Shown: positions 30,935 through 51,445 of the stretch, one piece after another
How the letters are laid out: each line of letters begins with the position of its first letter
Numbering within the stretch: the first letter of the stretch is position 1
Source: Aphanomyces cochlioides
Taxonomy: Eukaryota > Oomycota > Saprolegniomycetes > Saprolegniales > Verrucalvaceae
Reading direction: 5' to 3'
Assembly: GCA_019828595.1 (NCBI GenBank)
Contig: JAHQRK010000019.1
Coordinates: forward strand, 434,001 to 498,000
DNA: 64,000 bases
Notes under the pieces: model-generated
Seen by the model: the letters and a program-made list of their open reading frames with translations, nothing else
What the model was told of the DNA's origin: nothing
Database searches by the model: none
Made by a program: the position numbers and the translations under genes

Positions 30935-31642
30935 ATGAGCCACATGCAGCCGTTTGCTATCCTTTCTCTTCACAATAGCAGCCGCATTCGCTTGAGCAAC
31001 TTTCCACCAGAATCGACGCAATGGATTGAAGAAGCGGTGACGATGGCATGGCCACACAAGACAGAATCCACTGGTGCCATTGACCAAGCAGTGGAAATCA
31101 AATTGGGAGGATCGCCATGGAAGCCTAGCCTAGAGCAAGCCGCGCGCCTCATGCTCAACATCTTGACCATCTTTCGCATGCATGGCTACGCATTGTACAC
31201 CTCGACGAACGTGAGCAATGGCTTTGGGAGCAAGGATGTTCTCTTCTTTGAACGCCGCGAGCCTTGCCGAATGTCCATGTTCATCGTGGCGCGCCACAAA
31301 GACAACAAACTGCGACTCATCGACGCCCCTGTCGACATGGTCGACGTCGTGACTGAGTGCATTCAATCCAACTACACTGGAGGTAGTGCCCGCGTCTCCG
31401 AGTACATGCCAGCCTGCCACGAGTTCAAGCTGAAGAGCGATCCATGGGAGGACGGCCGTTCCCCCCACGGCCGGCTCTTGCTGGCTCACTTGTTTGCGCA
31501 GCTAAATGGACATGGCTGGCGGCTCTCAGCCACGATTCTGCACTCCCGTGAGGACGAAGCTGAAGAGACTTGGTACTTCAGCTACGAACCTGTCGCTCAA
31601 GTGGTTGGCATCGTGCATGCCCCCAAGATGGACATGATGTAG
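30935..31642 (+). CDS. duplicated-domain family protein, subfamily A, 235 aa
   Basis: Intact single exon from the ATG at 30935. I do not recognise the family. It is a paralogue of the genes at 46677, 48058, 49399 and 50759. Each protein looks like one domain repeated twice: the first half has IRLSNFPPESTQWI, KLGGSPWK, ILTIFRMHGYALYTST and DVLFFERREP; the second has LRLIDAPVDMVDVV, KLKSDPWE, LFAQLNGHGWRLSATI and ETWYFSYEP. The shared pattern is R-[LV]-x-[ND]-x-P, KL-x3-PW, GY/GW-x-L and D/T-W/L-x-F. No signal peptide, membrane span or catalytic motif is visible. The C-terminus (VHAPKMDMM) is shared with the truncated copy at 48058. Confidence 0.75.
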   Translation: MSHMQPFAILSLHNSSRIRLSNFPPESTQWIEEAVTMAWPHKTESTGAIDQAVEIKLGGSPWKPSLEQAARLMLNILTIFRMHGYALYTSTNVSNGFGSKDVLFFERREPCRMSMFIVARHKDNKLRLIDAPVDMVDVVTECIQSNYTGGSARVSEYMPACHEFKLKSDPWEDGRSPHGRLLLAHLFAQLNGHGWRLSATILHSREDEAEETWYFSYEPVAQVVGIVHAPKMDMM

Positions 31643-31686
31643 ACAACTTGGCTATAGCAATAATACGATATTGTTACAATACATAA

Positions 31687-32957
31687 TCACCCCAAGGTAT
31701 GCCGCCGACCTTCTATTCTAGTCGTTGTGGCAAGAGATGGCCGTCCATCGCACGTGGGGAACGAGAGAAGGAGAGATGGCACGCCGCACCTTGACGTTTC
31801 ACTCGTGTTGCGCACGTAGTACTCGATAAACTGTGGTTGAGGAGTCGCAGCCCCTGACGGATCGATGAACACTGGCCTGCTACACAACCACATGAGCATT
31901 CACGCCGGTAGCGGGAAGGGATGGTACCTCTCGTCTTCCTCTTGGTCAACTTCCATGTCTTGGTCAGCCGTCGCCTCTTCCAATGGAGACCACGGCGGAA
32001 TAATCTGAAGGGTGTCCACGAATTGGACACATTTGGTTTCGTATGTGATGAAGACTGGATCGCTCGTGACGACTGAGGGTCGTGTACGCTTTCTTGACGG
32101 GGCAGGGGCATCCCCTTGCATATTGCAGTCTTCGGTGACCTCTTCGGTCTCCTCCTGAACATCTTCGTTTGTGTCTGTGGATCCCGAAGCAATGCGGTTC
32201 GATTCTATATCAGAGTTCGTAAGAGAGGTGTGCGACCTCCAAAGTGTACTCTGTGGCCATGGGTTTGTTGGAGGTGGCATGCAAGCCGTCATCGGCCCAT
32301 CGAGTCTGTATGAGAGGAAGCGGTTCAAGAGCGTGTTCATCTGCAGCTCGCGTTCGTCGTCTTGAAGTCCCACCGCGACTTGAACACGCTGTTCGATCAT
32401 TTGCCTGGACTCGTACGACTTGAAGCGGTACGTGCGAGAGGACACGCCAAATCTACATCACATGAGCACTGCGATTCAAGGCGAGACGGTGGCATACCGA
32501 AGCTGAGCCCCATGGGAGAGGAGTGTCGGTTGAAGGGGTTCGAGTTTTTCGCCATCTAGGAAAGTTCCATGGCACGAGCCAAGGTCGATCAAGTAGACAG
32601 CTCCGTCGTTGTGATGGACTAGCGCAGCATGCATGCTATAGACGAGCCAGTTAGTGTGCCATGGCTTCCCGCAATCGCCTACCGTGAGATCGAGCAGTGT
32701 TCGAGGACAATATCGCAGACGAGGGCATTGCGTCCAAAGAGAAAGTACGGTTTCGAGTCGACATTGACACTCGTGATCACTTCGTTCGCTTTGTACACAT
32801 CGATCAACGCAATCGCATGCGGTTTCTGCGCCGCTGCCCAACTTGGTGCTTGGAATGGAATCGTCGGTTTCCCGACCCGTTCCAAATACCGGCTGCTGTT
32901 CTTAAAGATGCCCAAATCCAGGCGTGGTAGATGCAGCGCTTCCATATCTGTAGCCAT
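31687..32957 (-). CDS. FHA-domain protein, NIPP1-like, 376 aa
   Basis: Exons 32957-32683, 32635-32498, 32452-31928 and 31879-31687 join in frame across GT-AG introns of 47 nt (with a CTAAC branch site), 45 nt and 48 nt. The start is MATDMEALHLPRLD. The FHA domain spans the first two introns: FLFGRNALVCDIVLEHCSIS, then MHAALVHH, YLIDLGSCHGTFLDGEKLEP and LRFGVSSRTYRFKSY. These are the phospho-threonine-binding residues (GR, S-x2-H, S-x-H-GTF). The order resembles nuclear NIPP1/PPP1R8 proteins that bind protein phosphatase 1 and splicing factors. The C-terminal half is acidic and holds a PSRKRTRPS basic patch that may be nuclear targeting. A PP1-binding RVxF motif was not found, so NIPP1 identity is tentative. 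Confidence 0.78.
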
Positions 32958-34600
32958 CTTGGTCGTCGTTGTGTGTCTGTCAATGAGGGTCGCGTCGCCA
33001 AGTCAGGAGCGAGATGAGACTGGAGAAATCCGTCGCACCTCCGTGGGTGTTGGCCACTCCAGTGTGTAACGGGTTGATATTGAACCCTCCACCTTCGAAT
33101 TTCGACTTTTAGCCAATCAAAATTTAAGGTCTATTTTGTATTTGGGTGCTCGTCTATACAAACTCCAAGTGATCGAAACAGACTTCCGGATACGATGGCG
33201 ACAATTACTCACAAAAGAGTAGGTGACGGCGGGCGGCGGTGGAACGCCATCTTCCACAACGCAGGGTGAAAGAGCTCGATGTGTACATTCATGTGGGCAA
33301 GCCGATCGACAAGTCACACACTCTTGTAAGCAACATCGAACGGAGTCGACGTGTACGCGACATGGTCGCCACATTGCCAAGTTACACGCGTTCGACAAAT
33401 CAGACTCCTCTCGCTGGTGCCGTCGGTTCTGCCGCCGCCTCTCGCCACCGCCAGGAAGAAGATGGCGCGTTCAATTTTAGAAGAAGTAACAGTGCGGTGT
33501 GCCAAGATGTGTGGAACTCCTTTGTTTAGAAACAGGACCTTGTTCGTTCCTCGCAGTGTGTATGTGTTCGCGAGTGGGAGAGTGTGTTGCTCATCGGCGG
33601 GACGGCGAGAGAACGTCAGCGGCAGCCATTAGCACCATGCTTGCACACTGGATATGGGCCGACTCTCGAATGATTGTCGAGTGTTACAAGGCCCTTGGTG
33701 AGAGCGTAGTAAACGTTACAACAGCGGATTATCGAGGCTCGTCCACGATCGATCAATGCAATGCACGAGCTCAAAAGGACGTAGTTGCAGTGCGACTTGG
33801 GTGAACTCAGGGAACTACGATCAATCGAACGCAGTGAAGACTATGGAATCTGTGGCTAGTGTAGCAGTAGAGAATAGGGGATGTTGCAGAGCAGGACAAG
33901 TGAGACACGTTGTGTGTGTTGGCCTTGCGACTGTTGTGAGACTCGCACGACGGCTGACGGAATCTTGATCTGGGACATACAACTTCACAACAAATGTCGA
34001 CAATCCAAAGAGTCTTCTTCCTCTTCCCTCATTTAACACAGCAGTAGACAGCGCTCTTCTCCTTTCTAGTCTAGTTATACTGGAGTCGCGGCATTGCTTG
34101 GCTTGGTCTTCCTATGAATAGCTTGGAGCTGAAGAGAAGCTGTTACACCATGCAGTGAATACTGTGTAGAATCTCAAGAACGTGGAACACAGTACATGGA
34201 ACAGCTTGGACTTCACGCGTCTCTGCTGTTGGCTTTCAAGCGGCGGCTTCTCAAGGCCTTGGATGGACGTAAGCTGTCAGTATTCTGGAGATGGAAGTCC
34301 ATCGCGATGGCGCCAAATGTATGGTGATGCAGTGGGAATAAAAAACATTAAAAGAACGTTTGGGGGAGTTTTAGCCAATAAAAGAATGAGTTTAAAAAAC
34401 CGAGTGCAAGTCAGTCGTGATTGATGGCATGCATCTTACATATCCAAAAGAAAGTCAATTTTGCGAGGAAGCAAGGAGCAGGGGGTGATCCACCACTACA
34501 GTAGAACAGTCGTCGGTCAGGACAGACATATTTGGTCGTTGCCGCCTCCCATTTCGTGTACCATACTTTATCTATACGAGGACGGACCTTATTGTGATCG
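32958..34600. other. intergenic, no gene recognised
   Basis: 1.6 kb with short frames only. None carries a recognisable domain. It includes the promoters of the FHA gene (left end) and the Pumilio gene (right end). Confidence 0.45.
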
Positions 34601-36780
34601 ATGGACCCAAAGAAGCCTCACCGGTCATTCAGTCAACAACGAACTCGACCTTTTGCCGACGCGTCAACAAACCCCGCCGCGAATTCCTCGCTCTTTTATC
34701 GTGACTTAGACTTTTTCGACAGGTATGACGACTCCCTACACGCCACTGGCGTGCAGATCCTCACGTGTTTTCGTGCGTAGACCGTCGTACGAAGAAACAC
34801 AGCCGCGGCCATCGCCCACACCAGCACATGAAACCATCGACCCTGTATGATTATCCCTGTCGACGAGCGCGTCAACTGACTTGATTTACAGGAGATGTAC
34901 TCGGCGTACTACGATCCCTCGGCGAAAGCCAGCGACTTTGACGCCCTCCCGCAACGGAGAAAGAGCAGCATCGAAATGTTTTTATCGCGGAGTCCAAGTC
35001 AACATCTCGGGAGCGATTTCTTTAGAATGTCGCTGGACGAACCGACAGCATTCAACCTTGACGGAAATGCGCCGTCGAAGCCATTGCGATCTCCTTCGTT
35101 GCAAATGCCGCCTCAGCAACGATTTGGAAGCACCAATCAATACGAAAATGTCGATGAAGCGACGTGGTATCGAGAACCGGGCCATCACCCTCAACTGCGC
35201 AAAGATGACTCAGCTCTTTTGTATTCACGTACGAATCGAATCCAGCAGCAGCAGCAACAGTACCAGCAACAACAATGGCAACACCATCATCCGGCCTTGA
35301 ATGCACCTCCGCCGTTGCCAACGACGGCTGGATATGGTATGATGCGTGCACCAAACAATATGCCATCGCGACGATTTCCAGCGCTCCTTTCGCCCGACAA
35401 GCCTCCGATGCTCAAGCAGTGTAAATTCTTTGCGCAAGGTCATTGCCGTATGGGCAACAAATGCAAATTCGCTCACATTACCGGCGGTGGTGGCAGTGGC
35501 CCTGGGTCAACGGCGTCGAGCTTTGATGAAGATTATCATCCATTTGGTTTCCGTGTCAACCCCGAGTTGGCATCGCCATCGGGTTTGCCGTCAGAGTCGC
35601 CCCCTTATACTTCGATTTCCATCGATGATATTCAAGGCCGCGTGTTTGCAATGGTACGACCAGACTCCCCAAGCTGTCATTGAAGTTATCACGCGTAGAG
35701 CAAAGATCAAAATGGCTGTCGCTTACTCCAAGAGCAGCTCGAGTTCGACGACCGCGCAGATTTGTGCGATGTCATTTACGCCGAGTCGTTACCGCACTTG
35801 GTCGATATGATGGTAAACAATGCTTCATCGTCGAGGCTTGAGCTTCTTTGCTGTAGGTGGATCCATTTGGAAATTATTTGTTTCAAAAATTGCTTGAGCG
35901 AGTCTCGGATGCCCAGCGTCTTGTGATTGTCCAGCATGTTTCTTACCACCTTGTCGCTGCTGCGCTCAATCTGCACGGCACGCGGTCTGTGCAAAAAGTG
36001 GTTGAAATCTGCGCCTCGTCGTCTCATCCGCTTCTCATTGAGCTCATTGTGGATGCTCTCAAGGAGGATGCCGTGCGTCTGTGCATTGACTCGAATGGGA
36101 ACCATGTGATTCAACGAGCGCTTCAATTTATGCCATCCGAGTACAATCAATTTGTGTTTGACGCGGTTTGCGCTGAATGCACTGTTGTGGGCACGCATCG
36201 CCACGGCTGTTGTGTGCTCCAGCGATGTGTCGATGCAGCCAACGCCAGCCAAAAGAAGGAAGTGATCGCTCAAGTCGAGAAGCATGCGATGAAATTGATG
36301 CAAGACCCTTACGGCAACTACGTCGTCCAGTACGTCTTGGATGCTTGTTTGCCCGCGGATGCTCTTGGCGTGATGGAAAAATGTGTCGGGCACGTTTTTG
36401 AGCTATCAATTCAAAAGTTTAGCTCGAATGTGATTGAAAAATGCCTCGAATTGGCCCCGGACTACCTTCGGCAGACATTTGTCAAGGAAATCATTGCATC
36501 CCCTCGTATGTACCGCATGCTTCAAGATCAATATGCAAACTACGTCGTTCAACGCGCGCTATCGGTCGCGTCGGAAGAAAATTGCTTGCAACTCGTTGCT
36601 GCCATTCGACCGCATCTGGCGTCGATGAAAAATACCCAAGGTGGCCGACGGATCCAAGCGCGTATCCTCAAGCGTTTTCCTCACCTGGACGTTGGGTGGG
36701 ACCCCGACTACGGGGACCTCTCGTCCCCTGCTGGTCCCCGCCCGATGAATCCTCATGGCAGCTATGGCCGCGTGGCCTAG
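34601..36780 (+). CDS. Pumilio-family RNA-binding protein with CCCH zinc finger, 661 aa
   Basis: Exons 34601-34722, 34781-34844, 34892-35653, 35699-35812 and 35857-36780 join in frame; introns are 58, 47, 45 and 44 nt. The start is MDPKKPHRSF. A low-complexity N-terminus contains a poly-Gln patch (about 35241-35280), then a single CCCH finger (CKFFAQGHCRMGNKCKFAH). The C-terminal PUF domain has eight repeats with recognition cores NGCRLLQ, GNYLFQ, GTRSVQ, GNHVIQ, GCCVLQ, GNYVVQ, SSNVIEK and ANYVVQ. PUF proteins bind 3' UTRs and repress or localise mRNA in the cytoplasm. The core residues fit a UGUAUAUA-type site. In oomycetes PUF proteins are tied to sporulation, by family knowledge only. Confidence 0.92.
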
Positions 36781-36867
36781 TGTGTATAATATGAGTGTGT
36801 TATAGTATGAACAAGCAAGCGGTACAATAGGTGGATGTATTTTTTTCTCGATAAGAAAGTGAACCAG

Positions 36868-37847
36868 TTACTTGAGCGTTGCGTGGAGTTTGTTGATCAA
36901 ACCAGTCAGCATGGTATTGCCGCCGAGCGATTCAATTTCGCCGAGAATGTCTTGGTACAAGGCATCGAGATATCTCTTTGTGTAGGTAAACGCGCCGATG
37001 TCGGCCATGTATTCGATCGCATGTTCTTTCACTTTGACGTTGGTCGTGCGCTGCTTGATAATATTGATCAGCCGCGTGTCGGTCGTGTTGGCATGGATGG
37101 CAAAGATCAGCGGGAAGGAAAACTTGCCTTCTGTTAAATCTTCGCAAAAGCTCTTCCCTTCCATGTAACTTTCGTCGACGAGATTGATGTAATCGTCACG
37201 AATTTGAAAGTAGAGCCCCAACTGATTGACGAGAGGCACGAAATTTTGCTTGTTTGCGCTAAACGCCTGCATTAGTCCGACCGCCAAGCGAAAGAGACCG
37301 CCGGTTTCTAAATGAAGTAATGTCAGACGGCATCGAACACGAGATTCAACGTACTGTTGATCACCATGGCTTTGTACGCTTCCTCGCTTGGACATGTGGT
37401 CGTGTCACGCCATAAAATATCCTGGCCTTGACCACGATGCAAGTGAAGCATTTCGTCGATGTATACGTCCATTGCTTGGGTATTTTGTAGCGAGTGGCAC
37501 TTTTGCAGGGCCAAGAAAAAGACAAAATTCGCGCAGTTGATTGACATCGGCACTCCATAAATCGCATGGGCAACAGGTTGACCTCGCCGCAGCTCTGAAT
37601 TGTCTTCGATATCATCAATCAGCAGGGATGCATCGTGCAAGCTACCAATAATCTCCTTGATGGTCGTCATCTTGTCTGTTGGAATTTGCAGCCACAATTG
37701 GAATGCATCCACAAGAATTGACCGCACGTTCTTCTGTGGCAATGCGCGGATATAATTCCATGGCTCTAGGAGTACCTAAATGGTCTGTTAGCTCCATATG
37801 CAAGGCTGGAATGTACTTACGCGGTCGTCATCAAGCGACGTGTTCAT
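36868..37847 (-). CDS. geranylgeranyl/farnesyl diphosphate synthase, 295 aa
   Basis: Exons 37847-37821, 37775-37355 and 37307-36868 join in frame across introns of 45 nt (consensus GTAAGT, CTAAC branch) and 47 nt. The protein begins MNTSLDDRVLLEPWNYIRAL, the typical N-terminus of eukaryotic GGPP synthases. The first Asp-rich motif DDIED lies near 62-66 after SLHDASLLI, the second (DDYIN) near 187, and GKFSFP follows. These bind the Mg-diphosphate of allylic substrate and IPP. The small size and GGQP-like start favour GGPP synthase over FPP synthase. Product length depends on residues before the first motif and cannot be settled by eye. It supplies prenyl groups for protein prenylation and other isoprenoids. 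Confidence 0.88.
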
Positions 37848-38460
37848 CTGCGAGCAGATCCAAGTTTGAGAGAAAATCACGATCCTTATCCCACACAGAC
37901 ACAACATTCATCTTCGAATCAAATGTTGTGAAAATAAATAATTATAGCCAATTAAAAGGGAATATTCCAAGTTAATCTAAAAACTTTCGTTGTTTTAGTG
38001 TCAAATTTCGTTGTTTTAGTCTCGAATTGCGAGGATAAGCATGTTCTTTCGGGAGAATGGGACGTCTTCTTTGATGCAAGAATTCCCTCTCTCTTGCGAT
38101 TGAGTCAAGTGATTGATGGTCACGACTGACAAATTCCAACATAACACAACACTGGCTGAACTTGAGTGCGGTACAACAACAGTTCTACACAAACAGCAGC
38201 ACTGTCAACGTCAAGGCGTGGACCAAGAGAAAAGTGCCTCTTCTATACAGTGAAGTCGATATTGTACCAACAGCTACAGAGCTTAATCTAGAGGAATATT
38301 AGCTCTCGAATCTTTAGTGCTGAGCCTTTGACAAACGTAAATATTCCATTTTTGACCAATGAGAACTCTCCAAGTCATATTGATGGACGAACAATAAATT
38401 AATACTTGCACGACAAACTGCCACGTCATAGCAGTACACTCTCATAAGCTTGAGCCTCTT
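37848..38460. other. intergenic, no gene recognised
   Basis: About 610 bp of AT-rich sequence between the prenyl synthase start and the START-FYVE stop. It contains a near-direct repeat of TTTCGTTGTTTTAGT (37984-38022). Confidence 0.4.
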
Positions 38461-39769
38461 TCAGCTGTACGCTTTGAGCAATTTGGCCGCGTCTGGACGA
38501 TAAACATGGCGTGAGCTCGAGTGCTGTTGGGCACAGACCAAAGATTCACCGACATCGGAGCCGACGTCGTCGACAGATTCATCCTCCCCGTCGTCGTCAT
38601 CGACAATAAATAGTTTCTTCTCTTCTTCAGGAGTGCTCAGCGCTGTCGACGAGATGATGTCCGACGCCACATTGACACAGCACGCTGTGCAAACACGGCG
38701 TTTGGTCGGGATGCCGCCATCTCGAACCAGCCACACTTTACTACAGCCCCAGCAAACAACCTACGACCGTCGCGTGAGTGATGGAGAAGGCAAAGTCTTG
38801 GAGCTACCTCGCCGCATTTGCGACATCGCGCTTTGGGTAGCAAGAGATTGAACGCTTTGTCACAGAGGCCACATCGCTGGCGACTTGCTTTTGGCACGAG
38901 GTCGCACTTGTTCTTGAATCCACTGCAGCTGAGGCGGTAACTACGGAGCATGCCGCTGAGTTTCTTGGCCATCGAGTTCATGTATCGAGAAGCGTGGAAT
39001 TTGACAATGTAGTCGTTGACTCTCCCCTTGGGGTTGATTTGAGTGAGGTGGAAGACTTGGAGCAGATTTGGTTGATTCGTCTCGACAAAGACAGCGCCAA
39101 AGCGATAGATTTCACCGCGGACGACGCCGGGGGAATTCATCCAGTAGGGCTCCTCCCTCAGTTTGATCGACCTGACTGCTCGAACCCAAGCTCGAGTGCC
39201 TTGGATTTTTGTGTCTTGGTGGATCTACAGCTTATAGCTCAACTCAAACGATTGCCATCCATCCATACCTCAACAACGCAAAAGTCTCGAGGCTTGACAC
39301 CCATTCCATTGAGCTTACTGGTTTGTTTCAACCAGTTCACGCCGATAAAGTGATGCGGGTTGTCATGCGTCGGCCTCTCAATGTTGTAGAGGCGAGCTCC
39401 GTCTGTGAAGATGGAGCCCGAGGCGTCAATGAACTGCTTGTACTCGGCTGTGCTCTCACAGTAGCTCATGCGCGCAACATCATCGAGGCTAGCTTGGAGA
39501 GTCGACACTGACATCCACGTCGAGACGTTGGGCGGCGCTGTCTTGTCCACTCCAGAGTAGATCTGAATGCCTTGGTCGTCAGACGAGAGCTGCCAGTTGA
39601 TCGGACTCGTCGTGAAGAAGGCGTACTTGACCTGCGACGGTGCAAGATCACTCAATGAACGCCTGCATGTCGTACTCACCGCTTCCTGGGCCACTTGACG
39701 TGCAACAAGCTTGAGTTGACGGACATCGTCTAGATCCAGAGGCGCACATTGAAAGCCTGTCGATTCCAT
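38461..39769 (-). CDS. START-FYVE lipid-binding protein, about 389 aa
   Basis: Exons 39769-39680, 39631-39269, 39224-38808 and 38760-38461 join in frame. Introns are 48 nt (GTGAGT...CAG), 44 nt and 47 nt. The N-terminal two thirds is a START-like lipid-binding fold (DFCVVE, AWVRAVRSIKLREEPYW, VFHLTQINPKG). It is followed by a FYVE-type zinc finger: RCGLCDKAF, RCRKCGEVVC, CSKVW and VCTACC, giving paired Cys for two zincs. FYVE fingers bind PtdIns3P on endosomes, so an endosomal lipid-transfer or tethering role is likely; this pairing is expanded in oomycetes (family knowledge). The usual R-R/K-H-H-C-R is RKARCRKCGE-like here, so PI3P affinity is uncertain. The C-terminus is acidic (VDDDDGEDESVDD). 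Confidence 0.8.
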
Positions 39770-40770
39770 TAAACAACTTTGGTGTCTGGACTACAGTGGC
39801 GAACGTGCTCGCGGCCGAGAAAAGCGATTGTGATGGTAAGAACTGCGACTGTATGTGGCGATCCAGTCTCTTTTGCGCGTCGCAACGACCAGGTGACCAG
39901 ATGCGCTGTGAGTACATGTCGACAACGGCACATTGTTGCTTCGATGCTGTCGACCATTGGCTCGACAGGGGGCTTGAGTACATAGTACCTAACCGTACGG
40001 TGGGTGCTCTAGATCCTTTGTGACTGTTGAATCAGACGGAGCTTGCCAGCCGATGCCAATGCCATTGACATTTCCCCCTTCATACTGTCTTTTCCATTCC
40101 CAACAACACGACGACACTTCCGTCGGCGTCTTGCCACTTGCTTGCGACTGTCCGTGATTGATTTCATCAGCGTCAAATTCTCTCAGATATTCAAAGATGA
40201 TGGTGGCATCGCATGATACCGTAACTTGATGCGAGGACTCTGCAGCGCACCCAGCAAATCCCAGCGGGTGGGAAGCCCGCCTTCATCAAGAGCGCTGGCT
40301 GGTTCCAAGAAGGAGCCAGCGTTCGAGCATGAGCTCGTCGAGAAAGTTCCATCACGAGACCGCCGCCTGACGACAGAGAGACAGTTACCACACATGGATG
40401 GTACAATCTGAATGCCTCACCAAATTATTTTGAGCATGAAGCTGTCACCAGATATGAATTTCATGGTCAAATTATACCTAGAAGGGATCTTAGGTCGAAT
40501 TTCCAATATAAATTAATCGTTCAAAATAGTTCAAATTGGTGTGAAATTATGACAGAGGACAGCTGAATGTCCTGTGAGGACATTTGGCCGTGTGAATCTT
40601 CAGCGACTGGACAAGGCAATAATGGCTTATGGTGAAAACAACGGTTAAAAGAGGCGATAGGTAAACATTCCGTTGAGATCGCGGCCATACAATTTGTATG
40701 TCTATTGAAGTGAAACATTCTCAACCATTCTTAAAGTCGTTGACCTTCAAATCCATACTAGTGAGTGAAT
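39770..40770. other. intergenic, no gene recognised
   Basis: 1 kb, AT-rich toward the right. Short overlapping frames on both strands have no recognisable content. Confidence 0.4.
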
Positions 40771-41091
40771 GAGTGATGCCGAAAAGGCAGCTGTGGCATG
40801 CTTCTTGCAAGATGTTTCTAAGTCGAACGTGGAAGTGGTTGACCGTCGCAGCTATGCCGATGGTTTATTGATGGATAAACGACGTCGCATTGAAGAAAGC
40901 TCGCTGATTTGAAATTCACCCCGCCAACTTCCAATCTTGTCGAACGCTTGTTTTCTCGTGCGAAGTTGGTGAATAGTGATCTTCGCATGCGTATGTTGCC
41001 TCTTGATTTGGAGATGCTAACCTTTCTCTCGTGCAACAAGCGTTTTTGGGGACTTGGCCAAGTCGAACAAGCCATGGAAATGAATGATTAG
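40771..41091 (+). pseudogene. hAT-type transposase remnant, C-terminal piece
   Basis: Two frames, separated by a stop and frameshift near 40910, together give the end of a hAT-family transposase. The second reads PPTSNLVERLFSRAKLV...RMRMLPLDLEMLTFL...NKRFW, which matches the hAT dimerisation region, where P-T-S-x2-VER-x-FS and an RMRM-x-P block are typical. The rest of the element is missing. No terminal repeats found. Confidence 0.7.
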
Positions 41092-41548
41092 GATGTCCCT
41101 AGTACACCTAACGACTGCATAAGCTACATAATGCATGATTTTTGTTGAAAATACAGCAATCCCATACGTCAATGATGCATGGCAATCTCGCTAGGCATTT
41201 TGATGCATTCCGACAAAGGAGTCCTTCGCAACTGGTTATGGACAATACAATTCAAACGCCCCTAGGTACGGCAGTGTAACTCTTGCAGCAAACTTCAGTA
41301 TGGATGAATAATCATCATTTCTCCGATCCTATATACTTTAACTATGTCCCATTTTGTCCAATGAACCGCGCCAGGTAGATACTGATCCAATCAGAATTTT
41401 AATCCTGTTCGCGACACTCTTCCTGTCCAATCAAATTTATTAGGGTTAGGTAAGTAGGGTGAGTCGGACGGAGCCTCCGACATCGAAAAGTCGGAGGATA
41501 TGAAAAAATATGAGTATGCATATACAAATTTAAAGAGCATCACATATC
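41092..41548. other. AT-rich intergenic with a strong hairpin
   Basis: At 41474-41497 CCTCCGAC and GTCGGAGG form an 8-bp stem with an 8-nt loop. The upstream GTCGGA (41463-41468) can pair with the same TCCGAC, giving a competing hairpin. No gene. Confidence 0.45.
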
Positions 41549-41551
41549 TAA

Positions 41552-41576
41552 GAGCATCTCCACCAGCACGTCTATT
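41552..41576 (+). repeat. left TIR of Harbinger element
   Basis: 25 bp, GAGCATCTCCACC + AGCAC + GTCTATT. 21 of 25 positions match the right TIR; the four mismatches are clustered at positions 14-17. Confidence 0.92.
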
Positions 41577-41658
41577 TTAAACAGGTGATATCCGCATAAA
41601 AACGTCACTTCTATTTTTATGATCCCAGTTTGTGGTTGTTCTCCACCAACACAGCCAA

Positions 41659-42755
41659 ATGCAAAGCCCAGTCGTTGTCAGCTTGAAGTCGCGTTCGGAA
41701 GTAGATCTCGTGGCCGAACTCATTGACGAAGATGAGGAGGAGGAAATGCTCGCTGAGCTATTGCAAGCCAGACCACGTTGGATGTTGCATGAATCAGCCA
41801 AGCCAGGTGGATCTCGACCAGGCCGTTCATCCAACAAGCAACGTAACTACCACGCTCGTCATTTGCGGTTGATGGAGCAATACTTTGTACTCAATCCAGT
41901 CTACAACAGTCTAGACTTTCGGCGTCGCTTTCGTGTGAGTCGACGCCTCTTTGACAAATTGATGAATGGTGTCCCCGCCGTCGACAATTATTTCGAGCAG
42001 AAGGCTAACGCTGCTCGTTGTGTTGGCATATCGACACACCTCAAAATAACTGCAGCTCTAAGAGTCCTGGCCTACGCAACATCGTTCGACTCTATTGATG
42101 AAAATCTCGAGATGGCCGAATCAACAATAGACCTCTGCTTGAAACGTTTTTGTTTGGCTGTGCTCAAGGCATTTGAACCCGAGTATCTTCGACCCCCAAC
42201 ACCAGAAGAGGTGAAAAAGCTACTTGTCGAGAATGCAAGCAGGGGTTTTATAGGTATGATTGGATCAATTGACTGCATGCACTGGCAGTGGAAGAACTGT
42301 CCAATGTATGCGGCTGGAATGCATAAAGGAAAAGCTGCCAAGCCCACAAAGGTTCTTGAGGCTGTTCCTGACTACAGCTTGCGGGTGTGGCATTGTAACT
42401 TTGGCTCTCCAGGCTCACTCAACGACATCAATATTCTTGACCAATCACCATTATTCCACAACCTCCTGCGTGGTGAATCTGCGCAAGTGCACTTTAAAAT
42501 CAATGGTACGACAACAAAATGATGTATTTAAATATTCCAATGCAGGACATAGCTACGACACACCCTATTTTCTCGTAGACAATCTACCCTAATTGGCCTG
42601 TGTTTGTCAAATCTATTGAGCACCCCCACGGCTCAAAGCGGCAGCACTTTTCTCAGTGCCAAGAATCATGCCGCAAGGACGTGGAACGTTGCTTTGGCGT
42701 ACTGAAAGCTCGATGGCACAGAAGGCGCATCTCACTGTCGGCTGGGTTAGCTTGA
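41659..42755 (+). pseudogene. PIF/Harbinger DDE transposase, frameshifted and truncated
   Basis: Exon 1, 41659-42505, starts at an ATG (MQSPVVVSLKSRSEVDL). A 40-nt intron (42506-42545) leads to exon 2. Recognisable parts are the helix-turn-helix-like block (RLFDKLMNGV...), the first catalytic Asp in GSIDCMHW, the second in GSLNDINILD, and, after a frameshift near 42586, the Glu in CRKDVERCFGVLKARW. So all three DDE residues survive, but not in one frame. The normal C-terminus after KARW is missing; the frame runs on only to a TGA at 42753-42755. In an intact element this enzyme cuts and pastes the transposon together with its SANT partner. Confidence 0.88.
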
Positions 42756-43448
42756 CTGTAAACAAGTTGATTTCCATTTGTTCTTGGACAATGCGCATGC
42801 GCATGTCAGAGTTCGTTACCGCACGTTCAGCAGCTTTCACCTCTCGAGCATACAGAGCCAGATTATTGCGTTCCAGTTTAGCCTTGCTGACACCTTTTTC
42901 GTCATTTTTGTCGACGTGTGAGATCGATTGTGAGGTCTTCGCTCGTGAAGTTGCTGTTTGATCATGAGTGAAGTCCTCGGACATTGTCTCGAGTGGCCTC
43001 TTTGAGGATCCTTTTCGCTTTTGATTTGCATCGCGCCGAGCTCCCCACTTTGCCGAGTCTTTTAGCAAGCTCCAACATTGTGCAAACTTGAACACTCCGT
43101 TAGATTTTTCCGATTCGTAGAGTGCAATGGCATCTCTTTGGACATCAGTAGGACTCCGCCAACTGCCAAGAGTTTCAACAACATGCTCGTAACAACCGAC
43201 AAACTTTGACACAGCACGAAATATGGTCTGGAACCTTTGGGCAAGGGATTCAGGCGTTCTTTCCGCAACAAACTTGTCGTCTGCCCGAAGGATTTCTTCG
43301 AACTTGGCCTTCACCTTGATATAGAACTCATCACTGGATTGATAGATCCCTTGGATAGGATCACAGCTGACAAACAACCACGCGCTGCAAACGCCACGTC
43401 TTCATGCGACCGGTAGTTGACCCCTCGCACTTTCGACGGCTCCTCCAT
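42745..43448 (-). pseudogene. Harbinger SANT/Myb-like partner protein, frameshifted
   Basis: The minus frame from the ATG at 43448 begins MEEPSKVRGVNY. It shifts by one base near 43390 into a frame with FVSCDPIQGIYQSSDEFY and KVKAKFEEIL. Further on come SKFVGCYEHV, GSWRSPTDVQRDAI and NGVFKFAQCWSLLKD, the arrangement of the NAM-associated or SANT-like second protein of Harbinger elements, which helps the transposase bind the ends. The frame continues to a stop at 42613, but the part beyond about 42745 is antisense to the transposase, which marks a deletion junction. Confidence 0.8.
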
Positions 43449-43604
43449 CTCAACCGTTTTCGAAATTGTCACCTGCTATTCCCGAAGCTAAATTTATCAG
43501 GCTGTTTGACATGAAATGACCCTTTTCTAAATTTAAAGGCAAGTTGAAAGGACTGGTGGCTCGATAATATCAAAATCGCGGTTAAATATTTGTGATACAA
43601 CTTG

Positions 43605-43629
43605 AATAGACGCATCGGTGGAGATGCTC
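43605..43629 (-). repeat. right TIR of Harbinger element
   Basis: Read on the minus strand: GAGCATCTCCACC + GATGC + GTCTATT. Confidence 0.92.
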
Positions 43630-43742
43630 TAAGACATATTTGATCATCGTCCGACTACCATCTATATCCGGATAGCACAGGCTGTTATTCGAATTTCGCA
43701 GTCCACAGGGGGGCATTTTTCTTGTTCTGCGCACCCCAATCA

Positions 43743-45798
43743 ATGGGCTTGGATGATTCGCAATCAGGGAATACCAAACGAGCAAGGTCAACAGCGCTAA
43801 ACGCGTTCGGCAGGTTCCTCAAAGTGGAGAACGTTGCCATTGAGTATGTGAAGCAATGTATCCAGAATGACCCAACTGGACAATGTTTTGTGTCGATTAT
43901 GGACAAATTTGGTATGTTTCTCGCGTTCAGCGAACGAAACTCTGGGAAGCAACTCGCCAGACATTCATGTATGCAGTACTACCGACAGGTGAAACACTGG
44001 CTGCTAGACCAGTTTCCTCGGCTTCGAGTTCATTTGGAATCCCGACTTCTCAAAATGGGTAGAACCTTAGAAAACTATTGCCTCAAACGAGAAGAAGGCG
44101 GGTTCGTCAGAAAAGCACCAGCATGTACGGAAAGCGATTTATTCTGTATGATACGGTATTTGTACACGAATGCCAACACCTTGAGTGACTACCAGGATGC
44201 ATCGCTGTTATGTATGATGTGGTTCATGTTTGGACGTGCGTCCGATCTGTCGTTTGTTCAAAGACAAAACATTTCAATTGATGCGGGTGGTGTTTTTTTT
44301 GTGCGTTTGATCCGTCTCAAGACAAGCGAGGAGCAGGGGCTATCTCTATTTCCCTACTCCGAGCCCTTGATGTGTCCTCTGTTTACAATGGCAGTCGCAT
44401 TGATGAACAAGTGGCTCCATGTGCTGATCTTCTTGACAATTTACCACCCACCATGTCCAGGCCAACTATACAACTCAACAACGATGTACCGTTGATTGAT
44501 CTATTGGATCACCCTGATATCGTTGTTGAGGCAGAGACACAAGATGCACACTATTGCAACTCGAAAATTGCGCCACAGTCTACGCTGCACACCCACGTTA
44601 ATCGCTTACTCGATTGCTTAGCAAAGGAAGCTGGTGTGAAGTTGCAACTGACATCGCATTCGTTCCGTCGTGGTGGTGCCCAATTTGCGAACAGTTCAGA
44701 GCACTTGACCGCTCGATGGATCTTTGACCGTGGCGCATGGAACGTTAGCACGACGAACAAGGGGTTTGGATATGTTTTCAATACTCTAAAGGAAGATCAC
44801 AAAGTTGCTCAAGGCTCAGCGGACATTCACCGTCAGAGCGTGTTAAACTTGTAGTTTGATTGCCGTTTGATAGCGCGACAAGACAGCAAATCGGGCAAAT
44901 GCAACGGCTTGTCTTTTCTGCTTGCTCTGGACTTGTTACAAGAAAGTACAACGTCGAAGGAGATGTATTAGATGTGTTGATAGCCTACTTGATCTTGCAT
45001 TACCCGCTGTTGAAAGATTTAAATCCAAACGGCCCTGCGGCGATCCGTCTCGAAGCGTGTTTCACTCAAGCTGGTAGCACGATACCCCAGCTGCTCGCAT
45101 GGTCGGCTCATCTCGCTACAACTATGGCAAATCCCAGCGAAAGCACTACAATCGATGACAGTACCTCAAACATTGAAACATGTGAACGCCAGATGATTCG
45201 GCATCAAGCTTCTGTGATTGACAATTTCATTCAGCATTCCAAACGCCAAGATGATAGAATAGACGCCTTGGAAAAAATGCTGTTTGCTCAGACGCAATCA
45301 ACTATCCGCAATGACCAAGTTCAAGCAAGTCAAGTCGTCGCACCAATTTCTGTGGTCACTCCACAGGATACCACCAAGTGCCGCCGGCAATCCTCGACTG
45401 TGCCAGTAAAGTCAGTGTGGTTCGAGTGGTACACATTGGAGCCACGGTTGTGGATCAAATCCGAGAACAAACAGAAAAGGACAGATTCGAAGATGCTTGT
45501 CGCTTACTTGAAGCTGTTTCTTGATGCTGGATTTACACTCGATGAAAGCGCCACAACGTATCGCGACGAGGTTATGACTTTGGGATTGATCGTCGAGGAA
45601 CGGGTGTCGAAGTTCTTGAGTCAACATGGGTCAAAGTCCAAAGGAGCAAACGCAGTGCTCAAGAAGATGCGCTCACTCCATCGGACAGTGAAGCTCAATG
45701 ACAGAATTGCTACGTATCGAAGGCTTCTAAGTGCTGGCTCAATCATTGATCCATCTCCTTCCTACACACAAGATGTTCTTGACATTCACAGTCAGTAG
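43743..45798 (+). mobile_element. Crypton element 1 (tyrosine-recombinase DNA transposon), decayed
   Basis: Three consecutive frames make one Crypton protein. Frame 1 (43743-44410) holds the N-terminal SAM-like part and the first catalytic Arg in MFGRASDLSF, with Lys in RLIRLKTSEE. A one-base frameshift near 44405-44415 leads to frame 2 (to the TAG at 44852-44854), which has HSFRRGG (His-x2-Arg) and the candidate nucleophile Tyr in GFGYVF. A further shift leads to frame 3 (44860-45798), the long Crypton C-terminal region, ending VLDIHSQ. Cryptons integrate through a tyrosine recombinase with no reverse transcriptase and no TIRs, and are known in oomycetes. The ends could not be set from sequence. 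It begins 110 bp after the Harbinger duplication. Confidence 0.85.
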
Positions 45799-45914
45799 AT
45801 ATACTGCTACATTCTCCAGCTGAATCAGCTAATACATCAACCTGTTTCATTCTTGTTCATGTCGATTTCATAAATCGCTTTGCTGCGTCTGACGCTTGTA
45901 AGTCAATTTTGCTA

Positions 45915-45985
45915 TGATCGTGACTGGAATTGAACCAGTTCCTCAAGGACTGACGCCCTGCGCTCTACCAATGAGCTACACGATC
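45915..45985 (-). tRNA. tRNA-like gene, anticodon UCA (reads UGA), 71 nt
   Basis: The minus strand folds as a full cloverleaf: acceptor GATCGTG/CACGATC (7 bp perfect), D arm GCTC/GAGC, anticodon stem CAGGG/CCTTG, T arm ACTGG/CCAGT with loop TTCAATT, discriminator A. Internal promoter elements fit: box A TAGCTCATTGG and box B GGTTCAATTCC. The loop is CGTCAGT, so positions 34-36 are TCA and position 33 is G instead of the near-universal U. It is too short for tRNA-Sec. It may be an opal suppressor, a tRNA pseudogene or the head of a tRNA-derived SINE. Confidence 0.6.
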
Positions 45986-46676
45986 TTTGGGCTGCCCTTG
46001 ACCGTAGATTTGGTTGTTCACACTTTGTCCATCATCATTTGTGTTGGTGCCAAAGCTTTGAGTCTCGTTGGTCTGCGTCGTTGGTCTTGATGGTTGTTTC
46101 TTCGCCACACACAGAATGAACACTTGGCTTGGGCTCTTGGGTGGAAAATCGGGAATGATCTATCCGGTTACGTTGTGGCCCCCTTGTTGTGAGGCTGGAA
46201 GTCATCTCCCACGAAACTCTGCAAAACAATACAAAATCTCAGAGTCCTATTTCCTGCCTTGGCCCTCATTTTTGAATTGCCATAGAGTCGTCAGGTCGAT
46301 ATACTTCGACCAGACATGCTAACTTCGACTTCTCCAATCTCGGCCCACAGGCACTTTCAGAGCATTCTGTGAGCATGTACAAAAGCACCTCTCACAGCAC
46401 CATCCAGTTCGAAGTTCGATTAAAGAGTTTCTCATATGTGTGTCACAGGTATTATCCTGCACTCTCATTGGTAGGATATCTTCTGATATCCGACCTCTCA
46501 GGTCGGACTTTTTATGGTATGGCCACGCAGCTCTAATTGTTCCATTGCCGTTCTTGATATTTTCCCAATCACTGTATCCACCAACTGATCCCTTCGTATC
46601 ATTGCGACGATGCTGCGCCCTCTGTGCATGCTGACAACGATGGAATGCAAAACGAAGCACAAGTTCAAGTTTAACG
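45986..46676. other. intergenic with overlapping hairpins
   Basis: At 46474-46491 GGATATC-TTCT-GATATCC forms a 7-bp hairpin. At 46489-46507 TCCGACCT-CTC-AGGTCGGA forms an 8-bp hairpin that shares TCC with the first, so only one can form, and a T run follows at 46509. No gene recognised. Confidence 0.5.
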
Positions 46677-47582
46677 TTAGGTGAAGCCGACAAGTTTGGC
46701 TTCAGGAGCGTAGATGTTCTGGAACAATAGTCCTGCGTCCCTCTGCGCAGACTATTTATACCTATCCTATCAGACAACTCACGAACATCCTCCCATTGTG
46801 CAGATTGGTCGAACCAACGAGTGGTCCCAGTCCAGGATGTGCCTCTACGGCAGTAGGATAGGCAGTTTGGAATAGCCATGAAGTAATCAAATCGTGTCAA
46901 ACTCACCTCCCACGCAGTGCTCCCGGAAGTCAGAACAGTAGACAAAGTACCAAGAGTCTTTGGCATTCTTGTCGCTCTTGGTTGTCTGCTTGATCGTGGC
47001 GTAGAGTCGCCAGCCCGCAGAATTCAACTGAGCAAAGACATGAGCAACGATCATGGTCCCGAATGGCTTGAGTCCATCGAACCATGGAGAGCTCCAAAGC
47101 TTGAACTGCTGGCAGCCTGACGTGTACTCGGAGATGCGGACGCTTCCACCGGCGTAGTTGGTGTGGATGCAAGTCGTGATGAGCGCGACGATATCATGAG
47201 GAGCGTCAATTACACGGAGCGTGTCGTGTTGGTTGAGTGAGATGGAGAACATGGACAGAGTGCATGGCTCGCGCTGCTCAAAGATCAGAACATCTTTGCT
47301 CAATTCCAAGTTGAATATTCCAGTCGACGTATAGAGAGCGTAGCCATTCGTGTGGAAGGTAAACAAAATCTGCTGCATGAGACGGCGGGCATGGACCGTG
47401 TCCTCACCGTTGGGCAGCCATGGATATCCTCCCAGTTTGAACTCAACGTAGGTGTCCTTGTGCGGCCAGGTCGATGCGACTGCGTCAGTGCTCCATTGAG
47501 TGGCTTCGTTTGGAAAGTTAAACAATTGAATGCGGTCCGAGCGGTGCATGGCGAGCGTTGGGAAAGGCAGGATTCTGCTCAT
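46677..47582 (-). pseudogene. duplicated-domain family, subfamily B, split by a solo LTR
   Basis: The ATG at 47582 (MSRILPFPTLAMHRSDRIQ) starts a protein close to the intact copies at 49399 and 50759: KLGGYPWLPNGEDTVHARRL, then GYALYTST, FKLWSSPWFDG and GWRLYATI. Right after DSWYFVY the frame enters a 223-bp insertion (46715-46937) and stops at 46887. The rest of the normal C-terminus, EAKLVGFT and stop, is found on the far side at 46677-46705. The lost part is only about a dozen residues, so a protein ending in LTR-encoded residues (CSDFREHCVGGEFDTI) may still be made. Confidence 0.85.
46715..46937 (-). mobile_element. solo LTR, 223 bp
   Basis: Ends are TGTTCT...AGAACA (inverted 6-bp termini, TG...CA). 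It is flanked by perfect 5-bp duplications GTAGA at 46710-46714 and 46938-46942. A TATAAATAG box lies on the minus strand at 46752-46760, as expected for an LTR promoter, which puts the LTR in the same direction as the host gene. No internal retroelement genes remain. Confidence 0.9.
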
Positions 47583-48057
47583 GGTCTTCTTGGAGGTGCT
47601 GAAGGAAGTTTAGAAAATGACAAGCGCAAGTGCTCCATGGACGCTCTCATGGAACAATAATGAAGAAGGCAACATGATTGCATGATGGTCAGCTACAAAC
47701 ACTCGACGACATCAACGACTCCAGGAGAGATCCCAAGAGCTTTACTCACAAGACGCTCTGGACTCTGCTTGGATTGGAAACTTCCATGACTCCGATCAAA
47801 GCACGAGTCTTCGTCATGTTGTTCCCAGCAGTGTTAGTTGAGATCACTTCCAGCGGATGGTCAGTGGAGGATTCGTCCCAGCCACAAAGCCGAAAGAACA
47901 AAATCTGTGCGTCCAAGCATCCGCTGGGAGTCTTTCTTGACTATGGAATAGACGCTCTTCTCCATGGTCATGAGTAAATCGGACGTCTCCCTCTCTCGTG
48001 GATGACCATTTTGTCACCAATGCTGGAAGAGATGCTTTGAATCACGATTAGCTCAGC
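47583..48057. other. intergenic, no gene recognised
   Basis: 475 bp between two family copies. A 99-codon plus frame at 47678-47977 has no recognisable content. Confidence 0.4.
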
Positions 48058-48640
48058 CTACGACAAGTCCATCTTGGCGACTTTCCCAATGCCGACGACT
48101 TGAGCCAAAGATTCACTGCTGAAGTACCATGTTTCTTCAGCGTGGTCTTCTCTGGAGTGCTGAATGGACACTGAAAGACGCCAGCCAAGAGAGCTTAGCA
48201 GGGCTAACAAATGAGCTAGGTGCCGGCCAAAGGGTGAACTACCATTCTCCCATGGGTCGCTTTGAAGCGTGAACTCGTGGCATCCTGCCATGCTTTCTGA
48301 CACGTCAACTGTACCCCCGAGATTGACTCGTTGGATGCACTCGGTCATGACTTGGACAATGCTGACAGGAGCGTCGATGAGACGAAGTTTGACGTTCCCG
48401 TGGCGTGCACGTATAAACATGGGCACTCGACTGGGCTCGCGGCGTTCAAAGAAGAGTACATCGTTGCTCGCAAAGGCGTTACTCAAGTTTGTCGACGAGT
48501 ACAATGCATAGCCGTGTGATCGAAAGATGAACAAGATGTTCAGGATGAGGCGAGCAGCAAAGACTTTGAGAGTCCGTTGGGCCTTCCATGGCGAGCCGCC
48601 GAGCTGGACATCTATTGCTTTCGCTCACCGCAGCGAAGCG
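48058..48640 (-). pseudogene. duplicated-domain family, subfamily A, 5'-truncated
   Basis: Homology to the gene at 30935 runs from AKAIDVQLGGSPWK (about 48625) to the shared end GKVAKMDLS at 48058: ILFIFRSHGYALYSST, DVLFFERREP, FTLQSDPWENG, GWRLSVSI and ETWYFSSE. The first 50 or so residues are missing and replaced by repeat-like DNA with an in-frame TGA just upstream. No ATG restores the N-terminus. An internal ATG at the SMAGCHE region would give only the second half-domain. Confidence 0.8.
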
Positions 48641-48895
48641 GAGGTCGAGTGAAAAATTTTCTGCAGGCGGATGACTCCGAGGAGGGAGCCCCCAACGTGC
48701 ACGAAAAAGGGGTTTCTTTATATTTTCTCTCATCGGGTAAGGCGGCAGGTAGGCCGTAAGGCCGTGCCGCCACCCTGATGAGGCCTGCTAGAGAATGACA
48801 AAGTTTGGCGCTTTAACTCTTCCTGGTGATGGAGATATGTTCAATTTTGTAGTGTGACCCAAAAGTGTGACCTGACCCGGATATGACCTGTCTCG
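48641..48895 (+). repeat. hairpin-bearing repeat joined to the truncated gene copy
   Basis: Contains a GC-rich hairpin at about 48740-48771: GGCGGCA and GGCC pair with GGCC and TGCCGCC around a GTAA loop. 48757-48895 matches 12330-12450 in ordered blocks. A CTGATGAG stretch follows at about 48774 but no GAAAC-type partner was found, so a hammerhead ribozyme is not supported. Confidence 0.5.
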
Positions 48896-49398
48896 GACAC
48901 TACCGAAATATTGTCTGCATGATTAGCATTCTTGCTGTACTTTGTTGGAACGCAGAAGCAAATTGCCACGCAGTTGCTCTCAAGTACTTCCTCCATGGAT
49001 TTCCTCCAGTGCATTTCTCAAGTGGAGCCTCCGAAGTCTGTGGAGAAAGCTCTGATTGTAGTTCGTAATTCAATGGCGAGACGCAGTTTATACCGATTGA
49101 CAGTCGTGGCTCAGCCTTGACGCGCTGAAAAGCATACATCGAATGAGGGTTTCGCCGTGGTTGTTCATGCAGTCGGTCTCTGCGGCGAAAATGCGCGTAC
49201 AACTGCAAACCAAGGAGATCTTCAACGAGCTGCCCTTTGCAAACACCACTGGGAGCCATTGTTTGCTCACATATTGGAGCAGATAAGTTTTCTCGCTTTG
49301 AAGGCCGAAACAAGGTGAGCAAGTCGCCGAAAGGAGGCTCTACATGTCAATAAATGAAGCATTGCGTGGTATTAATAGAGATAATGGTTCGACAAGGT
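48896..49398. other. intergenic, no gene recognised
   Basis: 500 bp between the repeat and the next family copy. No coding content recognised. Confidence 0.4.
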
Positions 49399-50094
49399 TT
49401 ACATGCCGATGAGTTTCGCTTCGGGTTCATAGGAGAAGTACCACGTGTCTTTGGAATTGCGTTCGTCCTTTGTGAGCTGGTTGATCGCAGCGTAGAGTCG
49501 CCAACCAGAAGCATTGAGGTGAGCAAATAAGTGGCCGACAATCATCGTGCCAAAGGGTTGGTATCCGTCGGTCCACGGAGAGCTCCAAAGTTTGAAATTC
49601 AAGCAGCCTTGGGTGTAGTCGGACACACGGACGCTGCCACCCTCGTAGTAGGTGTTGATACAATTTGTCAGCATTTGTGCAATCTCTGGAGGCGCGTCAA
49701 TCACTCGCAGTGTGTCGTGTTGATTGAGCGAGATGGAGAACATGTTGAGCGCACATGGCTCTCGGAGTTCAAAGACGAGAACATCCTTGCCAAAATCGTC
49801 ATTGAAAATCCCAGTTGAGCAATACAAAGCATAGCCGTACATGCGAAACAAGAGTAAAATTTGCCGCAGGAGGCGGCGGGCATGCACGGTGTCTTCCCCG
49901 CTCGGTGACCATGGATATCCACCAAGTTTGAGCTCGACATACTTGGTGTCAGGAATGATCGAGATGGTCTTGTGCGGCCACTTGGCGTTCACAGCATCGG
50001 TGATCCATCCACAGGCTTCCTTTGGGAAATTAAACAAGCGAATGCGATCCGAGCGGTGCAACGCTAGTGTCGGCAAAGGCGGCAGTCGGCTCAT
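49399..50094 (-). CDS. duplicated-domain family protein, subfamily B, 231 aa
   Basis: Intact single exon from the ATG at 50094 (MSRLPPLPTLALHRSDRIRL). The two half-domains align well with each other: IRLFNFPKEACGWITDAVN, KLGGYPWSPSGED, ILLLFRMYGYALYCST and KDVLVFELRE in the first; LRVIDAPPEIAQMLTNCIN, KLWSSPWTDGY, LFAHLNASGWRLYAAI and KDTWYFSYEP in the second. I do not recognise the family and see no catalytic motif, signal or membrane span. My weak recollection is that single segments of the type K-L-x2-YPW...GEE...LL...L in uncharacterised fungal proteins look similar; a profile search is needed. Confidence 0.8.
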   Translation of the reverse strand: MSRLPPLPTLALHRSDRIRLFNFPKEACGWITDAVNAKWPHKTISIIPDTKYVELKLGGYPWSPSGEDTVHARRLLRQILLLFRMYGYALYCSTGIFNDDFGKDVLVFELREPCALNMFSISLNQHDTLRVIDAPPEIAQMLTNCINTYYEGGSVRVSDYTQGCLNFKLWSSPWTDGYQPFGTMIVGHLFAHLNASGWRLYAAINQLTKDERNSKDTWYFSYEPEAKLIGM

Positions 50095-50758
50095 GGCGAT
50101 CCAAAGTCCAATTCAAGAATACCTTGGATGGACTCTAGGTCCAAGCACTTCCTGCCAACATCATGTGGACTCAATCTGTGCTTTTGATTGGTCCGAATAA
50201 TTCCTAAATTCCTAATAAAGTGTGCAATAGGCAATGTTATCAATATAAATTTTTCGGACATCAAGTTTATGCATTTATTCAAGGAAATCGAGAATGACTG
50301 TCAACCAAAATGCCCCTGGCATCCCTGGAAGAATCATGATGACGCCTCCCTTGTACGACTTGACGACGACATAGGAATCCAATGGCGTTTGCCGCTCTGT
50401 GGAGGAGAAATCGCTCGAGCGGCGAGAGGGAATGCGCCCATGGAGATGTAGAACTTCTCGTTTCAATCCTCAAAGTGCTTTTTCAACGAGACGGACGCTG
50501 TCAGGCTGACACCGAACATGATACAGCTTTGTTGGTCTCATGAAAGTCATACATGACAGTTCATGCCCTAACTCCATGGCTAAGTTGGATTGAGAAGTCC
50601 AACGTTCAGTGTCGAATGATTGGCACTCGACTCGCATCTTGCGGCGGAATAACGGGGGCGTGTAGTAGATGGATGATCCAAGCGGCTAGAGGGAAATCTC
50701 ATCATGGATTGAGTGACGATCTGGGCGGACATTGAGATGGACTGAAGTTTATTTCAAC
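50095..50758. other. intergenic, no gene recognised
   Basis: 660 bp between two intact family copies. The 5' flank of 49399-50094 lies at its left end. No domain-bearing frame. Confidence 0.4.
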
Positions 50759-51445
50759 TTACGTGAAGCCAATGAACTTGGCTTCGGGGGCGTAGACAAA
50801 GTACCAAGAGTGTTTCGCACTCTCGGTCGTCTTGATGGATGCGTAGACTCGCCACCCTGCTCCATGCAAACGGGCGAAGATGTGACCGATGATGAGCGTT
50901 CCAAATGGCTTGAACCCGTCGAACCACGGAGAGCTCCAAAGCTTGAACTGCTGGCAACCTGCAGTGTACTCAGAGACACGGACGCTTCCACCGGCGTAGT
51001 TGGAATTGATGCAAGTCGTGATGAGCTCGACAATGTCAGCGGGAGCGTCGATGACTCGCAGCGTATCGTGTCGATTGAGGGAGATGGAGAACATGGACAA
51101 CGTGCATGGTTCGCGGAGTTCAAAGACGAGCAAGTCCTTGCTAAAGTCGTCGTTAAAGGCATGAGTGGAGCAGTATAAAGCATAGCCATGCATTCGAAAC
51201 GTGAGAAGAATTTGCTGTAGGAGGCGCCGCGCATGGACTGTGTCTTCTCCGATCGGCTCCCATGGGTAACCACCAAGCTTGACCTCCACACACTGGTTGT
51301 TTGGAACAACGGACACGTTCTTGTGCGGCCACTTGGCATGCACTGCTTCTGTGATCCATTGAGTGGCTTCCTGCGGGAAGTGAAACAAGCGAATTCGGTC
51401 CGAGCGATGCAGCGCAAGTGTCGGCATCGGTGGAACTTCCGACAT
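50759..51445 (-). CDS. duplicated-domain family protein, subfamily B, 228 aa
   Basis: Intact single exon from the ATG at 51445 (MSEVPPMPTLALHRSDRIRL). It is closely similar to 49399-50094 over its whole length, with the same two half-domain cores (KLGGYPWEPIGEDTVHARRL and FKLWSSPWFDGFKPFGT) and the tail YAPEAKFIGFT. A tandem duplicate in the same orientation as the copies at 46677 and 49399. The second half has a shorter loop before HSWYFVY than its sisters. Function unknown. Confidence 0.8.
   Translation of the reverse strand: MSEVPPMPTLALHRSDRIRLFHFPQEATQWITEAVHAKWPHKNVSVVPNNQCVEVKLGGYPWEPIGEDTVHARRLLQQILLTFRMHGYALYCSTHAFNDDFSKDLLVFELREPCTLSMFSISLNRHDTLRVIDAPADIVELITTCINSNYAGGSVRVSEYTAGCQQFKLWSSPWFDGFKPFGTLIIGHIFARLHGAGWRVYASIKTTESAKHSWYFVYAPEAKFIGFT

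Follow-up and report, generated by a model that had tools for sequence, protein, structure and literature searches.

Tandem two-unit proteins in Aphanomyces cochlioides, likely distant kin of the kinetoplastid Q4D6Q6/Q586B2 family

Introduction

The kinetoplastid proteins Q4D6Q6 and Q586B2 share a ββ-α-ββ-α-ββ topology and assemble into a propeller-like tetramer, with Q586B2 running at about 55 kDa on sizing, and Q586B2 has been described as vesicular in location, released, moderately active as a tautomerase and able to induce interleukin-10 (PMC10899635). That 2024 study reports no homologue outside the Bodonidae and Trypanosomatidae. The gene for Q586B2 (Tb927.6.4140) is PFC4 of the paraflagellar rod proteome, with PFC16 as its paralogue (PMC2813431), and the two products interact in reciprocal two-hybrid tests and have in common a 21-residue motif that is insufficient for binding (PMC2766642). 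Here we characterize a protein family of the water mould Aphanomyces cochlioides whose members carry in tandem two units predicted to have this topology, encoded in a stretch of 64,000 nucleotides (hereafter the window; positions 434001-498000 of contig C11, JAHQRK010000019.1, in a genome of 76.2 Mb and 94 contigs).

Two other sets of proteins also enter the comparison of folds. In the assembly intermediate of the Trypanosoma brucei mitoribosomal small subunit (6sga, 9hny), chains FQ to FU have the fold in common with the window proteins and differ in being longer (215 to 277 residues), with one matched domain each, and in belonging to a mitochondrial complex. The H1 domains of KCTD8 and KCTD12, the C-terminal domain of KCTD1, and GFRP have a related core and are ring-forming scaffolds or regulators; the rings of GFRP and KCTD1 are pentamers (PMC7618933).

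Results

The family has five copies in the window, one on the forward strand and four in a cluster on the reverse strand between 46677 and 51445. An earlier note on this sequence had placed members at the same five positions, and all five are confirmed. The copies, with the units of the one whose structure was predicted, are as follows.

30935..31642, forward strand: copy 1, 235 residues; units at residues 4-110 and 112-220; belongs to the KMDMM-tailed subfamily
46677..47582, reverse strand: copy 2, two units; an insert ends the open frame at 46887, the old 3' end being 46677
48058..48753, reverse strand: copy 3, decayed; unit 2 open in frame 48058-48534, unit 1 broken, three stops
49399..50094, reverse strand: copy 4, 231 residues, fully open; structure predicted for this copy
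49756..50082, reverse strand: unit 1 of copy 4 (residues 5-113), predicted ββ-α-ββ-α-ββ, also modelled alone
49420..49752, reverse strand: unit 2 of copy 4 (residues 115-225), predicted ββ-α-ββ-α-ββ
50759..51445, reverse strand: copy 5, 228 residues, fully open; units at residues 5-113 and 115-221

The tandem arrangement can be read from the copy 4 protein, where the motifs quoted in the earlier note occur in both halves, as RLFNFP and RVIDAP, KLGGYPW and KLWSSPW, GYALY and GWRLY, and KDVLVF and KDTWYF for the first and second half, respectively. A profile built from the four N-terminal halves scores the four C-terminal halves at 13.4 to 20.7 bits, with 12.9 bits for the best shuffle (4,000 made, 3,352 scored), and the C-terminal profile scores the N-terminal halves at 10.0 to 27.6 bits, with 8.3 bits for the best of 3,042 scored shuffles; the weakest half-to-half pairs exceed the best shuffle by just 0.5 and 1.7 bits. 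Alignment of half against half with hhalign gives a probability of 91% (P 1.1e-6) over 100 columns at 18% identity, and one Basidiobolus and one Achlya protein match some of the window copies crosswise, with unit 2 aligned to unit 1 or unit 1 to unit 2. The full-length model of copy 4 (mean predicted local distance difference test score, pLDDT, 90.2; predicted template modelling score, pTM, 0.89) shows in DSSP the order strand-strand-helix-strand-strand-helix-strand-strand twice, and unit 1 modelled alone gives the same eight elements (pLDDT 88.5). The internal duplication that had been read from the sequence is borne out by these searches and models, in which each window protein is two tandem copies of one unit of about 110 residues, predicted to fold as ββ-α-ββ-α-ββ. 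A single non-repeating fold is rejected on the half-profile tests together with the full-length and unit 1 models.

In the models the unit has the topology of Q4D6Q6 and Q586B2 (DSSP, two models) and their fold over its whole length. Both units match Q4D6Q6 in structure comparison, aligned over 98 to 103 of 107 residues, and Q4D6Q6 ranks 6 Z units above KCTD and GFRP. It is also the first match by sequence with three profiles, weakly so at E values of 0.018, 0.035 and 0.04. Fold and, weakly, sequence point to kin for the domain of a family that the earlier note could not name, and common descent with the kinetoplastid Q4D6Q6/Q586B2 (PFC4)/PFC16 family is likely. Since that family (PDB 6xyb, 6xyd) has one unit per chain and forms a homotetramer, whereas the window proteins carry two tandem units, we file the latter as likely distant kin rather than as members.

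The family itself has no model in the collections searched, in agreement with the earlier note, to which it looked undescribed: the five window reading frames match no Pfam family at E ≤ 10 and no NCBIfam model, three proteins tested against each of PADLOC and PHROGs found no family there, and among 30 family members compared with Pfam three match DUF4177, short of the curated score (best E 0.068), with no family matching more than three. The kinetoplastid family found as kin is itself poorly understood, so the hit to a well-characterised single-domain family that the earlier note had named as refuting its reading is not fully realised. The note's suggestion of a novel system holds in that the family looks undescribed and fails in that the fold was already known.

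Three protein searches, in one of which scoring was confined to the 7,998 candidates with the most words in common, yielded 73 relatives. Named ones come from Aphanomyces and Achlya, from ascomycetes including Clonostachys, Fusarium, Diaporthe, Exophiala and Lipomyces, from Mortierella-type fungi, Basidiobolus and the basidiomycete Cutaneotrichosporon, and from the rotifers Brachionus and Rotaria; many further rows are environmental sequences. The family is thus not one of Saprolegniales alone, as fungi and rotifers carry members. Aphanomyces euteiches supplies the closest database proteins: P0003 is 94% identical to copy 2, and the other three open copies have P0001, P0002 and P0068 as close relatives, P0001 being 95% identical to copy 4. 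When viral relatives were sought, Foldseek returned nothing from BFVD at E ≤ 0.001, and peptide-pattern scans with two patterns each confirmed no relative in viral contigs (172 stretches) or genome contigs (203 stretches), which is a weak negative in both cases. Five locus tags of relatives were not mentioned in any of the papers searched. One two-unit member, P0050 of Oculimacula yallundae, is named after the opioid growth factor receptor in one source, perhaps by false transfer.

Each of the 77 sequences counted (the 73 relatives and four window proteins) contains units recognised by a profile that was seeded from the window alone: two units in 63, three in one, four in six and one in seven, and never five or more. 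The one-unit rows, with a length of only 127 to 177 residues, may be fragments. Four full units are present in P0007, P0046 and P0047, while one of the four is partial in each of P0008, P0015 and P0019. In a tree of 66 units, which has few columns and is in part unresolved, units cluster by position (9 label changes against 32.0 when shuffled), and P0048, which has three units, pairs with the second, third and fourth units of the four-unit proteins; the tree bears on the order of duplications.

Conservation was counted over 44 two-unit proteins in copy 4 numbering, with set substitutions allowed. Eleven positions (D16, R19, E54, K56, G59, P61, W62, R73, G87, W88 and D104) are kept in both units, in 40 to 44 of the 44 for unit 1 and in 36 to 44 for unit 2, and F108 is kept in 43/44 of unit 1 versus 18/43 of unit 2. 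The window copies themselves depart at a few of the conserved places, for example with S for G59 in every unit 2. This sharing of residues between the units lends support to equal roles for the two.

The N-terminal tails of relatives, thinned for likeness with some shared ancestry remaining, are rich in PPxY, which occurs in 13 of 48 (1.4 expected, a count reached in 0 of 2,000 shuffles); the looser [LP]PxY occurs in 20 of 48 (1.9 expected); in C-terminal tails PPxY is found in one of eight, which is not significant. The PPxY motif binds WW domains of Nedd4/Rsp5-type ligases, and its presence in these tails hints at WW-domain partners.

In the genome, searched with three family proteins, the five copies of the window are the only ones found, a count that is a lower bound: three are fully open, one open with an interrupted end and one decayed. 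A weak match on contig C23 (E 0.05) was rejected as a sixth copy, its best unit-profile score of 1.8 bits being at the level of chance. For two of the members proposed before, the reading needs correction: the open frame of the copy at 46677 reaches 46887 only, with the insert near its end, and the match of the copy at 48058 spans 48091-48753 and holds three stops, leaving its first unit no longer intact. The two subfamilies proposed are real, as this decayed copy is 66.5% identical to the one at 30935 and 42.9 to 43.2% identical to the other three. Over the six pairs of four copies, Nei-Gojobori counts from an in-house script give a synonymous divergence (dS) of 1.12 to 1.65, imprecise at this height, and a nonsynonymous-to-synonymous ratio (dN/dS) of 0.15 to 0.30. 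By these counts the four copies are old duplicates kept by purifying selection, and such duplicates, together with one decayed copy and one transposon-like interruption, fit the birth-and-death evolution suggested earlier.

In the tree of two-unit proteins, the seven oomycete rows form one group with full support (100/100) and the ascomycetes form a second (86/74, not starred). The approximately unbiased test (p-AU 0.0765) does not reject a grouping that unites the fungi and leaves oomycetes plus Rotaria outside. Horizontal transfer from fungi was considered and is neither shown nor refuted by this tree.

The interruption of copy 2 has the following form.

46715..46937, no strand: insert of 223 bp resembling a miniature inverted-repeat transposable element (MITE); its terminal inverted repeats are 7 bp long and the target duplication 5 bp

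Elsewhere in the genome the insert has 21 matches, at least 12 of which reach 95% identity or more across 193 to 223 bp, and on the likeness of these matches the MITE-like element is a recently active short transposon of this genome. Because the A. euteiches record P0003 is the same gene as copy 2 without the insert, the insertion is taken as a variant between strains.

Several other elements lie nearby. Beside the cluster, ARAGORN calls a selenocysteine tRNA (anticodon tca) at 45915-45985 on the reverse strand, and its sequence is matched at 15 other places in the genome, most of them in arrays with a spacing of about 230 to 240 bp, on contigs C11, C12, C14, C32 and C67. The four-copy cluster is flanked by sets of open frames at 43722-45798 and 52178-54403 (forward strand) with HSFRRGGA- and HSSRRGAA-like stretches, which we take to be reminiscent of Crypton-type tyrosine recombinases; against Pfam these sets gave nothing beyond one match at E 0.008. 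A Plant_tran (PF04827) transposase is encoded at 41632-42522 (forward strand; E 1.7e-37), and at 34895-36780 (forward strand) a CCCH zinc finger is followed by PUF repeats in adjoining frames, which may belong to a single RNA-binding gene that contains an intron or a change of frame.

Discussion

With modest confidence, we favour reading the window proteins as distant tandem kin of the kinetoplastid family that build a ring scaffold of about four units. In kinetoplastids four one-unit chains form the propeller-like ring; with two units tethered in each window protein, two chains would close the same ring, and the four-unit proteins of Brachionus would supply a whole ring in a single chain. The simplest reading would then be one four-unit ring in three constructions (1x4, 2x2 and 4x1, with one, two and four units per chain). 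Such a ring would most likely be a passive scaffold or adaptor with several equal binding faces, to which relatives may add flexible PPxY tails for WW-domain proteins.

A number of results weigh against this reading. The structure predictions covered single chains, and the ring itself is inferred. Four may not be the sole possible number of units, since the five different mitoribosome chains FQ to FU share the unit fold, so that the number in a ring may differ, and the GFRP and KCTD rings are pentameric. The best E value for the sequence link to Q4D6Q6 is the weak 0.018, and 6xyb was not found by the ten-fungus profile (A5), the five-copy profile (A1) or a single protein; the 73 relatives include no protein from a named kinetoplastid. 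Queried with the full two-unit model, Foldseek returned nothing at E ≤ 0.001 and ranked a designed protein first. The absence of a family from structural lists does not exclude that family. In three of the six proteins counted as having four units, one unit is partial, and the window copies have no 15-residue tail before unit 1 and no PPxY there.

The likeness to Q4D6Q6 could instead be a common arrangement without common descent, a ferredoxin-like or GFRP/KCTD-like pair of units that is perhaps a ligand-sensing regulator, pentameric or with a metabolite between the units. We think this unlikely, as Q4D6Q6 stands well above KCTD and GFRP in structure comparison, is aligned over nearly the whole of both units, and also comes first by sequence. 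Somewhat less probable again is an enzyme or small-molecule binder working as a two-unit monomer. The moderate tautomerase activity of Q586B2 speaks for it, as does the firm mutual placement of the two units in the copy 4 model (pTM 0.89), and the charged residues D16, R19, E54, K56 and R73, conserved in both units, could line a pocket. However, the activity of Q586B2 is far below that of MIF (PMC10899635), no enzyme family was matched, and the same residues recur in every unit, four-unit proteins included, which fits a structural or contact role better than one active site.

A lineage-specific family of secreted effectors, expanded by birth and death in a plant-infecting water mould, would account for the tandem cluster, its decayed and interrupted members and the transposon-like genes on either side, and trypanosomes release Q586B2, a distant relative that has been called a virulence factor (PMC10899635). 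We nevertheless regard it as very improbable: unit 1 starts at residue 4 or 5, too early for a signal peptide to precede it, the family extends to rotifers, Mortierella, Lipomyces and others, the dN/dS values are low, and the genome search found five copies only.

Returning to the four-unit ring, a broader and more tentative version, which we think possible and would not yet bet on, is a scaffold of ancient eukaryotic origin that has been overlooked. Its propeller of four units would take the form 1x4 in kinetoplastids, 2x2 in water moulds and fungi, and 4x1 in rotifers, with the tails of many members docking WW-domain proteins such as Nedd4/Rsp5-type ligases. If true, a fold confined to two kinetoplastid families in PMC10899635 would be present as tandem copies across fungi, water moulds and rotifers, and its function would become accessible in harmless organisms. 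The module described as specific to kinetoplastids would in that case be widespread, and the part that one trypanosome member plays in virulence would be a late recruitment. The unit arithmetic is a sharp and simple prediction of assembly, and one name would cover many proteins now called hypothetical.

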